Source: Synechococcus sp. A10-1-5-1
GTDB lineage: Bacteria > Cyanobacteriota > Cyanobacteriia > PCC-6307 > Cyanobiaceae
Direction of reading: 5' to 3'
Assembly (NCBI RefSeq): GCF_023115425.1
Contig: NZ_CP096032.1
Location: forward strand, 1,488,001-1,552,000
DNA length: 64,000 nucleotides
Under the pieces are notes generated by a model. It was not told the origin of the DNA, did no database searches, and worked only from the letters and a program-made list of their open reading frames with translations. The position numbers and the translations under genes were made by a program. Below are positions 4,846 through 7,200 of the stretch, piece by piece; within the stretch, counting starts at the first letter, position 1, and each line of letters begins with the position of its first letter.

Positions 4846-5826
4846 CTATGGCGCCAGCAGAAACCCGTCGCGGAAGGCATCAACGGGGTCGGCTCCCCGC
4901 TTGAGGCTGGCTTCCACCTGCAGGAGCTGACTGAGCAGGGCGAGGAAGCGTTCGGGTTTGCGGCCTCGGATCTGTTTGCGCATCACGTAGATCCGTTTGG
5001 GATTGCCAATCCCGGCGGCCTTGGCGATGGCATTCACATCGTTTTCCCCTTGCTGATCCAGCAGGCTCACCCAGAGCCAACCCCGGATCTGCCCGCAGAG
5101 GGTGGCCACAATCCGCAGGGCCGGTTCATTGGCGGCCAGCAGGACATCCACCAGGGCTACCGCTTCGGCGGGTGCTCCCGCCAGGAGAGCATCACCCACC
5201 TGCAGCGCATTGGTGGCCTGGCCGCCAATCAGGGCTTCCACCGCTTGAGCGGTGATGGTTTGGTCTGCCCCGACATAGAGGGAGAGTTTTTCCAGTTCGC
5301 TGGCCAGCCTGGCGCTGTCGCTGCCGATGGCATCGCTCAATGCTTGGGCGGCGTCGGGCTGAAGTTTGAGCCCCAGCTCTTGGGCTGTGCGTAGCACCAG
5401 GTCCACCTGCCCGGATCCATCCCAGATCGCCGGCAGTTGAAAGCTGCGCTCCTTGGCCTCGCCGCTTTTGACCAGTTTTTGCAGGGCCTTGGTGGTCTTG
5501 AGCCGCCCATCCGGTTTGGCGGCGTTCACCAGCACCAGATGGCACTGCTCCGCCACCAGGTTCAGAGTGGCCTCCAGTTGCTCCGCTAGATCAGCCGGGC
5601 ACTGGTTGCAGAAGGGGCTGCGTTGCAACACGATCACGCGATCCCCCGCGCCAAAGGGGGCCGTTCGCGCTTCCTCCAAGGCTTGAGCGGCCTGGCTGGC
5701 ATCGTTGCCGTCCAGACGGCTGAGGTTGATGCTCTGCCAGGAGGGATCGACCTGGCTTTTGACCAGTGCTTCGACGGCCCGGCTGCGCGCGGCTTCGTCG
5801 TCGCCCCAGATCAGATGGATCGGCAT
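4846..5826 (-). CDS. holA: DNA polymerase III delta subunit
   Basis: Delta subunit of the clamp-loader complex, which opens the beta sliding clamp. The protein has 326 residues and the HolA layout: an N-terminal region starting MPIHLIWGDDE, a central degenerate AAA+ region (SDAIGSDSARLASELEKLSLY), and a C-terminal helical domain with NPKRIYVMRKQIRG and the LLQVEASLKRGADP segment. It overlaps the 3' end of the Phd-PIN gene by 16 bases and precedes lysC on the same strand, so the three are likely co-transcribed. Confidence 0.93.
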   Translation of the reverse strand: MPIHLIWGDDEAARSRAVEALVKSQVDPSWQSINLSRLDGNDASQAAQALEEARTAPFGAGDRVIVLQRSPFCNQCPADLAEQLEATLNLVAEQCHLVLVNAAKPDGRLKTTKALQKLVKSGEAKERSFQLPAIWDGSGQVDLVLRTAQELGLKLQPDAAQALSDAIGSDSARLASELEKLSLYVGADQTITAQAVEALIGGQATNALQVGDALLAGAPAEAVALVDVLLAANEPALRIVATLCGQIRGWLWVSLLDQQGENDVNAIAKAAGIGNPKRIYVMRKQIRGRKPERFLALLSQLLQVEASLKRGADPVDAFRDGFLLAP

Positions 5827-6515
5827 GGCAGCACGGGGTGCAGTGCAGTTTGTGCCAGATCTGCATCGGCTGTGACCAAGACAGCGACTTCGTTCTGAAT
5901 GGCCGTTGCCAGTTCGATGGCTTGGTTGAGCTCCAGCTCTGGTTCCTGTTGCTGGAGACGGCTTGCTGCCAGGGCGAGATCCCCATTCAGCGGCACCTGC
6001 CGCCAGTGCATTGGATTGGCAAAGGCGGCGTTGTAGCGCAAGGCCAGGGCTTCATCCCCCTGGCTCAGGGCAGCGTCCATGACGTCCATCAGGCTGATGC
6101 TGCTGATGACCCCTTGCCAGCTGCCCTGGGCGATGCCTTGAAGGACGGGCTCCAGCACCCGGCTGGTTTGTGGGTCGTCGTGCAAAAAGGCCGCAAGGGC
6201 ACTGCCGTCTAGGCCGATGCGGCTGCCGGGGCCTAATTGCCTGGCTTGGAAGCGGGCTTTTGCAGGGGCTCCCCCAGGCGCCCGCTGCTGTGCGCTGCGC
6301 TGCTGGGCACTTCCCTTGAGGCTCAGCAGGTTCTCCATCGCTTGTTGGCTGCTGGTGCCACCCGCCGCGTCCTGCAAAGGGACGATGGCCGCCAGATCAT
6401 GGCGGTGGCGTTGGATCACCAGCCGCTCACCCTTGGAGGCGCGAACCAGTAGTTCGGGGAAGCGCTGACGGGCCTCTTGCACTCCAAACCGCTCCACCCC
6501 AATTGCTCCAGCCAT
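5811..6515 (-). CDS. Single-chain Phd/YefM antitoxin-like plus PIN-domain fusion protein
   Basis: The 234-residue protein combines two modules normally encoded separately in type II toxin-antitoxin pairs. Residues 8-47 (FGVQEARQRFPELLVRASKG, then RLVIQRHRHDLAAIVPL) match the Phd/YefM antitoxin fold. A Gln/Ala-rich linker (about 55-95) follows. Residues 99-225 resemble a PIN nuclease: D103 in GLDGSAL, acidic residues in SLMDVMDAA (144/147), AIELATA (199-205) and TADADL (D217/D219). The usual third acid (the D of DAIHLATA) is Gln198 here, so nuclease activity may be weakened. It overlaps holA by 16 bases and diverges from cobH across 37 bases containing a palindrome. Fusion and assignments are inferred from motifs. 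Confidence 0.7.
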   Translation of the reverse strand: MAGAIGVERFGVQEARQRFPELLVRASKGERLVIQRHRHDLAAIVPLQDAAGGTSSQQAMENLLSLKGSAQQRSAQQRAPGGAPAKARFQARQLGPGSRIGLDGSALAAFLHDDPQTSRVLEPVLQGIAQGSWQGVISSISLMDVMDAALSQGDEALALRYNAAFANPMHWRQVPLNGDLALAASRLQQQEPELELNQAIELATAIQNEVAVLVTADADLAQTALHPVLPCRSI

Positions 6516-6527
6516 CGCTCTGTGCAG

Positions 6528-6537
6528 TCTGTACAGA
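6528..6537. promoter_or_regulatory. TGTACA-centred palindrome, candidate operator of the Phd-PIN gene
   Basis: The perfect 10-base palindrome TCTGTACAGA lies 13 bases upstream of the Phd-PIN start and 15 bases upstream of cobH. A wider repeat, CTCTGT (6518-6523) and ACAGAG (6533-6538), surrounds it. YefM/Phd-type antitoxins are known to bind palindromes with a TGTACA core in their own promoters, so an autorepression site is a reasonable inference; binding is not shown by sequence alone. Confidence 0.45.
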
Positions 6538-6552
6538 GTCTGTCAGCGGGGC

Positions 6553-7200
6553 ATGCTTGTCCCCATGGGATTCGACCATCCGATCTTCAGCGAGAGCCTG
6601 CGCTTGATCGAAGCGGCCTTGCCTGAAGGGACGTTGCAGGGTTTGTCGGTTTCCGAACGGGATGTGCTGCTGCGTTTGATCCACAGCAGCGGTGATCTGA
6701 GCTTGGTTCAGGGGGTGTCATTCTCAGATCAGGCTTGCGAGCTGGGTCTGCGCGCCCTCAGTGCCCAGGCGCCGATCCTGACGGACACCGCGATGGCGGC
6801 GGCAGCGGTGGCTCCGATGGCCCGGCGGACCTTCGGGAATGTGGTTCGCAGCGTGCTGGATTGGGCTCCTGATCGTGCCCCCGAGGGGGGGACCCGAGCG
6901 GCGGTGGGCATGCAGCAAGCCTTGAGCGCCCATCCCGGAGCGCTGGTTTTGATCGGAAGTGCGCCAACGGCTCTGGAGCTGTTGCTCGAGCAGGTCCGTA
7001 GCGGAGAGGTTGCCCCTCCTGCGTTGGTGATCGGGATGCCCGTCGGCTTTGTCGGTGTTGCTGAGAGCAAGGCCCATCTCGCGGCCAGTGAGTTGCCTCA
7101 GATCCGTTTGGACGGGAGTCGCGGTGGTGCCGGCTTGGTGGGTGCTGCGGTGAATGCTCTGTTGCGCCGGGCTTGGTTGGATCAGGCGGCGTCAGTTTGA
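6553..7200 (+). CDS. cobH: Precorrin-8X methylmutase
   Basis: Moves a methyl group from C-11 to C-12 in precorrin-8X, giving hydrogenobyrinate (CbiC does the equivalent in the cobalt-early route), in vitamin B12 synthesis. The 215-residue protein has [13 protein letters not shown] at the start, [15 protein letters not shown], the active-site-type segment [14 protein letters not shown], and a late [16 protein letters not shown] second in-frame ATG at 6565 is possible, but the first leaves a normal length. It diverges from the Phd-PIN gene, and its 3' end overlaps the convergent mutS by 19 bases. No cobalamin riboswitch fits in the 37-base upstream gap. Confidence 0.93.

Follow-up and report, generated by a model that had tools for sequence, protein, structure and literature searches.

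The gap between two divergent genes of Synechococcus sp. A10-1-5-1 holds a palindrome built around TGTACA, and the question it raises is which protein the palindrome serves and what kind of protein that is. The window, by which we mean the whole 64,000-nucleotide stretch that was analysed, carries on its reverse strand a fused Phd/YefM-PIN gene of 234 amino acids (complement of 5811-6515), the candidate owner of the site. Its product has a Phd/YefM antitoxin-type DNA-binding domain at residues 11-70 (complement of 6306-6485) and a PIN domain at residues 102-224 (complement of 5844-6212). The 3' end of the gene is overlapped by the 5' end of holA, for DNA polymerase III delta (4846-5826, also reverse strand), and on its other side cobH, for precorrin-8X methylmutase, runs forward from 6553 to 7200. 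Measured from the fusion ATG (complement, 6515) to the cobH ATG used in the initial annotation (6553), the gap is 37 bp (6516-6552). Since the homology of cobH in relatives begins near residue 6-7, 6565 is another possible start of the gene, which would lengthen the gap to 49 bp. Our preferred reading, at a probability of about 0.8, is that the fused gene regulates itself with the palindrome as its operator; the gene would be a disarmed phd-PIN descendant and its product a putative self-repressor.

Taken alone, the window protein scores just below the Pfam cut-offs for both PIN and Phd. Across the family the Phd/YefM match was found in 21 of 21 members and the PIN match in 11 of 21; there is also a match to the VapB46 N-terminal domain (E 0.0025), and in the predicted structure (mean pLDDT 88) the C-terminal PIN half has a VapC-like fold. 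The fusion gene is present in 16 of the 25 genomes of the genus and in 57 of 400 genomes of the family, six of the latter as weak matches, and it sits between holA and cobH wherever both neighbours are readable (locus L046 ends before cobH). One conserved peptide pattern, scanned over about 85,000 species genomes, returned 39 relatives, the fused form coming from cyanobacteria only. In the literature covered, mostly outside subscription journals, we found the fusion, its operator with 9-bp spacing and the dispersed palindromes discussed below to be undescribed.

It is important to establish what the unit of this site is, as two palindromes with different centres overlap here. The shorter, TCTGTACAGA, lies at 6528-6537 and is centred on 6532.5; the longer is a 21-bp imperfect palindrome, CTCTGTGCAGTCTGTACAGAG, at 6518-6538 with its centre at 6528, and its position within the divergent gap is as the initial annotation gave it. 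Its outer arms are CTCTGT (6518-6523) and ACAGAG (6533-6538), and it contains two hexamers whose starts are 9 bp apart, a drifted TGTGCA at 6521-6526 (TGCACA in the two closest relatives) and an intact TGTACA at 6530-6535; none of these elements is assigned a strand. A partial third repeat of the half-site, CTGTCAG on the forward strand at 6540-6546, is kept in all three closest genomes. The initial annotation had taken the single TGTACA core as the unit, and TCTGTACAGA does occur once in the window against a shuffle mean of 0.01. This view was rejected because relatives retain the hexamer pair at 9 bp and because the bare motifs are ordinary in frequency: TGTACA was seen four times in the window where 2.66 were expected, and bare CTGTACAG is found at 8 places in the genome, as against 14 for the reversed control pattern. 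Exact matches to TGTRCA-N3-TGTRCA number just two in the whole 2.4-Mb genome, and of these the window's alone has an intact TGTACA. Each of the three closest genomes has a single mismatch-free TGYRCA-N3-TGTACA, and in every case it is the one at this locus. The sequence comparison thus indicates that the 21-bp element of two TGTRCA hexamers, not the 10-bp TCTGTACAGA, is the meaningful conserved unit.

The same spacing prevails in the relatives. In 10 gene-bearing genomes, 85 of 95 TGTACA pairs lying within 20 nt of each other are N3 (the 85 being the summed N3 counts of the 10 genomes), and in some genomes the half-sites form a ladder of three or four with 9-bp steps. Four genomes of genus g6 have a TGTACA-N7-TGTACA pair, one per genome (G112:C1:2304951, G265:C32:9918, G134:C15:133350 and G152:C39:2572), which is possibly a different conserved operator. 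The operator in the window is among the most degraded versions, and since one of its half-sites is altered, the protein may bind it weakly. A search of 6380-6680 for sigma-70-like promoters found none.

The site is conserved together with the gene. Fifty-one loci were examined, and leaving out L044, from which the Phd domain has gone, and one duplicate gave 49, among them two of the two-gene type and several with broken copies (G029, G173, G197 and G294). In 45 of these a strict GTAC-N5-GTAC stands in the stretch from the Phd core to cobH. One half has drifted in three others, namely the window and its two closest relatives, and L009 has a single-base change in one core. A TGTACA-type palindromic core therefore lies directly upstream of the Phd/YefM gene throughout, with one core altered in four loci. 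None of the 17 holA-cobH loci in which the gene is missing or reduced to a remnant has the site, and it is present in all four further genomes of the gene-loss comparison that keep a phd gene. Genome G162, whose gene is without the N-terminal domain, has no site in its gap. The initial annotation had proposed asking whether the palindrome is kept together with the fusion gene, and it is. Fusion remnants without an operator are found between holA and cobH in L132 (G018), L133 (G001), L134 (G127) and L135 (G219); these are recent losses, and three of them still have three dispersed sites each.

These patterns bear on whether another regulator, such as LexA or NtcA, might bind the site instead. 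Cyanobacterial LexA boxes contain GTAC-type half-sites and NtcA boxes contain GTA/TAC, so that a resemblance exists. The gap nevertheless has no match to either consensus, and membership of a LexA or NtcA regulon was rejected on that ground. GTAC-N5-GTAC is also absent from the 3.2-kb stretch around the genome's own lexA, a scan that took in the whole stretch, within which the lexA reading frame was not located by motif. As the site moreover vanishes with the fusion gene and is present upstream of phd in unrelated phyla, we regard control by another regulator as extremely improbable.

The autoregulatory reading draws on what is known of related antitoxins. In the cited extracts, YefM and Axe repress their own promoters by way of N-terminal domains that bind TGTACA palindromes in pairs (PMC7730913, PMC4803016, PMC3760812), so the likeness to YefM-type palindromes drawn in the initial annotation holds, YefM being described there as binding the TGTACA type (PMC7730913, PMC4803016). 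The same two sources place the two palindromes of yefM-yoeB 12 bp apart, centre to centre, and name R10 and R31 as the DNA-contacting arginines of YefM. In the present family Arg16 and Arg36 are invariant among the members compared, and they appear to sit at about the positions of R10 and R31, an equivalence proposed from position and not from an alignment. The system accordingly resembles YefM-YoeB of E. coli and Axe-Txe of Enterococcus, as those extracts present them, in joining a Phd/YefM-fold putative repressor to paired TGTACA-core palindromes that would overlap its own promoter region, and in the autoregulation proposed here. It differs from them in its centre spacing, 9 bp rather than 12 bp, and in having a PIN domain in the same polypeptide where they have a RelE-type toxin in a second gene. 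By both its spacing and its partner domain, which is PIN and not a RelE-fold YoeB, it falls outside YefM-YoeB in the strict sense.

The mechanism that we propose is that a dimer, or a pair of dimers, of the N-terminal Phd/YefM domain would recognise the two TGTAC-type half-sites with starts 9 bp apart. The site being directly upstream of the gene's own start codon, the bound protein would repress its own transcription. The ancestor of the gene would have been a regular phd-PIN toxin-antitoxin operon of two genes, with the operator already in place; after fusion, the PIN catalytic residues and the toxin-neutralising tail of the antitoxin would have been lost, and because of these losses a self-repressing DNA-binding protein would remain. 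What the comparison shows directly is the sequence of the site, that it is conserved and disappears along with the gene, and that the fused proteins lack residues which two-gene relatives keep; from these we infer binding and repression. It is most likely that the fused protein binds the pair and represses itself, and the comparative evidence lends good support to the suggestion of autoregulation made at the outset.

Because the gap is shared, the operator could in principle be bidirectional, so that the fused protein would also control cobH and hence cobalamin synthesis, as the initial annotation supposed. In the window and its two closest relatives 14 bp separate the operator from the annotated cobH start, and the holA-fusion-cobH synteny is retained. 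Across the loci, however, the operator hugs the fusion gene: its median distance to the Phd core is 43 nt, while that to the cobH core is 151 nt, with a range of 13-328 nt (the cobH side of L046 is unreliable). So short an interval between the fusion gene and cobH is confined to the window's clade of three genomes and a few others, genomes without the fusion gene keep holA-cobH but not the site, and no other cob gene was recognised by eye beside the dispersed sites at 40 loci. We therefore rejected co-regulation of cobH as a conserved role, and the cobalamin link, given the variable distance, is unsupported beyond the shared 37-bp gap; that the operator governs cobalamin synthesis is unlikely. 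Within the window's own clade co-regulation of cobH is possible, since the gap is so short that bound protein in this genome may also hinder cobH, and this would be incidental geometry and not a conserved link.

If the fused gene is the operator's owner, the question becomes where the two of them came from. Two genomes, G207 and G147, and only these, have separate phd and PIN genes in that order at the same locus with the same operator; in G207 the phd stop and the PIN start overlap. Five of six non-cyanobacterial loci were read, one from an alphaproteobacterium, one from a gammaproteobacterium, two from Myxococcales and one from Zeimonas. All five have a stand-alone phd with GTAC-N5-GTAC directly upstream; in four a PIN gene lies behind phd and in the fifth the stretch ends before any PIN gene. 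From the 45 strict sites in 49 loci, the absence of the site in 17 gene-less or remnant loci and the five distant Phd relatives, it follows on sequence grounds that the operator is in all probability an ancestral Phd-PIN operator.

Comparison of the two-gene and fused forms suggests what has changed since. All four acidic residues of PIN are kept in six of six two-gene forms. The third catalytic Asp has been lost in all 32 fused proteins (Gln in the window) and the catalytic Glu in 29 of 32 (Asp in the window), three keeping it; the first Asp has changed in two of the 32, both to Glu, and is kept in the window, and the fourth acidic residue has been lost in 16. The six two-gene antitoxins end in a short tail with conserved Arg and Trp (as in IDALRDEW), which presumably neutralises the toxin; this tail is absent from all 32 fused proteins, where a linker of other composition stands instead. 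We infer catalytic inactivity from these changes, and the PIN toxin part of the fused protein is probably disarmed. Descent of the fused gene from a two-gene phd-PIN operon, with fusion and then disarming, would be the simplest reading, the direction of that history being deduced from the forms compared.

PHD-PIN is listed as a common toxin-antitoxin pair in the cited extract of PMC2701414, and the present system is like Phd-PIN (VapBC-type) type II operons in its domain content and in an operator shared with G207, G147 and four non-cyanobacterial relatives. It is unlike them in being a single fused gene, one 234-aa ORF in the window in place of two separate coupled genes, in its lost catalytic residues (in the window as in the fused family) and tail, and in its fixed chromosomal locus. 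Single-polypeptide fusions have been reviewed as a linked toxin-antitoxin system (PMC4826407), and Slr1999 of Synechocystis, a HicA-HicB protein, is described as an auto-regulated toxin in a single chain (PMC4963859). As far as these extracts describe them, the likeness lies in having toxin and antitoxin domains in one chain; unlike Slr1999, the toxin site is degraded here, and conservation falls on the DNA-binding part and the operator. The label of toxin-like gene in the initial annotation thus applies to the presence of a PIN domain and not to its catalytic positions, and since those are lost, a regulator that arose from a toxin-antitoxin operon is the likelier identity of the fused protein. 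What endures of that annotation is an autoregulatory-type site kept with its gene; the single core does not, the toxin label probably does not, and the cobalamin link is not supported.

The operator is not confined to the fusion locus. TGTACA-N3-TGTACA occurs in 46 of the 400 family genomes, and extra exact copies away from the fusion locus were found in 34 of 51 gene-bearing genomes (136 copies) as against 9 of 349 gene-less ones. The 51 leave out the six weak matches, and both sites of G225 were counted, conservatively, as its own fusion-locus sites. Stratified by genus, the difference gives a CMH chi-square of 31.5 with p about 2e-8, a value that is too optimistic because species are not independent. 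Among the nine exceptions, G018, G127 and G219 have decaying gene remnants, G023, G309 and G177 have assemblies from which the holA locus is missing and G104 has a weak, stop-ridden gene match; G217 and G242 have single sites without explanation.

The dispersed copies (loci L086-L125 and further places) are long palindromes in gene-bearing picocyanobacteria. At the 40 loci away from the fusion gene nearly all sites are intergenic and many lie between convergent genes, as judged with a simple gene caller that mis-starts some genes. The core lies within ftsY-like coding sequence in L109 and L125, in the N-terminal linker, and in L028-L033 it is also seen inside the fusion genes' own coding sequence, where it encodes a linker of VQPVQ type. 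The arms that flank the core covary, with a score of 0.347 against 0.220 in shuffles (0 of 500 as high) that drops when the arms are slid; this set comprised 39 loci, the ladder-bearing L118 being the one of the 40 left out. Four sites folded as single DNA strands formed long perfect hairpins. Rfam gave zero matches for the palindromes in the 8 loci scanned of the 40, and the proposal that they are known RNAs was rejected on this result; a TPP riboswitch lies downstream of one dispersed palindrome. Other Phd antitoxin genes were likewise rejected as owners of the dispersed sites, since most of 64 site loci, some of them overlapping, have no Phd neighbour. The only clear one outside fusion-gene loci is in L118 (E 4e-6), where at about 1782-2520 a separate Phd antitoxin gene is followed by a PIN gene, and a ladder of four half-sites lies downstream between convergent genes, next to lepA. 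A few CAA/TTG-type sites adjoin PIN genes (L091 and L099).

One family of copies lies upstream of thiC in genus g6. Of 13 genomes whose fusion gene is intact, 10 have the site there, and of two with a broken gene neither does; of 12 fusion-less genomes with a thiC locus, six scanned over 420 nt lack it and the other six were seen over the first 130 nt of the gap only. Of the 29 genomes queried two had no thiC match. Shared descent confounds this pattern, because the fusion-bearing genomes are also closer relatives (96-100% identity in thiC, versus about 91-93%). At these thiC loci (L193-L219) a palindrome block stands upstream of thiC and its TPP riboswitch and is missing as a whole elsewhere; the arms of the palindrome change in step between species.

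Such scattered palindromes might suggest that the site beside the fusion gene is itself one copy of a REP-like or MITE-like repeat that merely adjoins it. Long palindromes with the same core are spread through many gene-bearing genomes, often between convergent genes and with covarying arms, and the thiC block is missing as a whole from fusion-less genomes. At the fusion gene, on the other hand, all 49 loci keep the site, none with more than one core altered, the same short site stands upstream of phd in Proteobacteria and Myxococcales, and the window's clade (G000, G003 and G008) has zero dispersed exact copies. A repeat origin is therefore very improbable. The dispersed copies do resemble REP/MITE-type palindromes in being scattered, mostly intergenic and subject to compensatory arm changes; they differ in that their core is the operator of the fusion gene and that their presence follows this gene across genera.

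The autoregulatory operator may have a wider history, which we put forward tentatively and with more doubt than confidence. A vertically kept phd-PIN operon of freshwater and brackish picocyanobacteria, locked between holA and cobH, could have been fused and disarmed and have become a DNA-binding protein with genome-wide targets, its operator being the founding copy of the dispersed 15-bp cores (TGTACA-N3-TGTACA) in long, step-changing palindromes. On that account the copies, mostly intergenic, often between convergent genes and sometimes coding for linkers, would vanish when the gene decays. If this is true, the protein would be a chromosome-wide binding or roadblock factor, or a keeper of palindromic repeats, and not a toxin. 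The parts worth following are the 9-bp Phd-PIN operator and the gene-linked dispersed palindromes. A single chromosomal address presents the operator, intact two-gene forms, fused and disarmed forms and decaying remnants, and so displays a route by which a toxin-antitoxin operon can be reduced to simple self-regulation; should the dispersed sites prove to be targets of the protein, a once selfish module would now serve as a DNA-binding factor across the chromosome.
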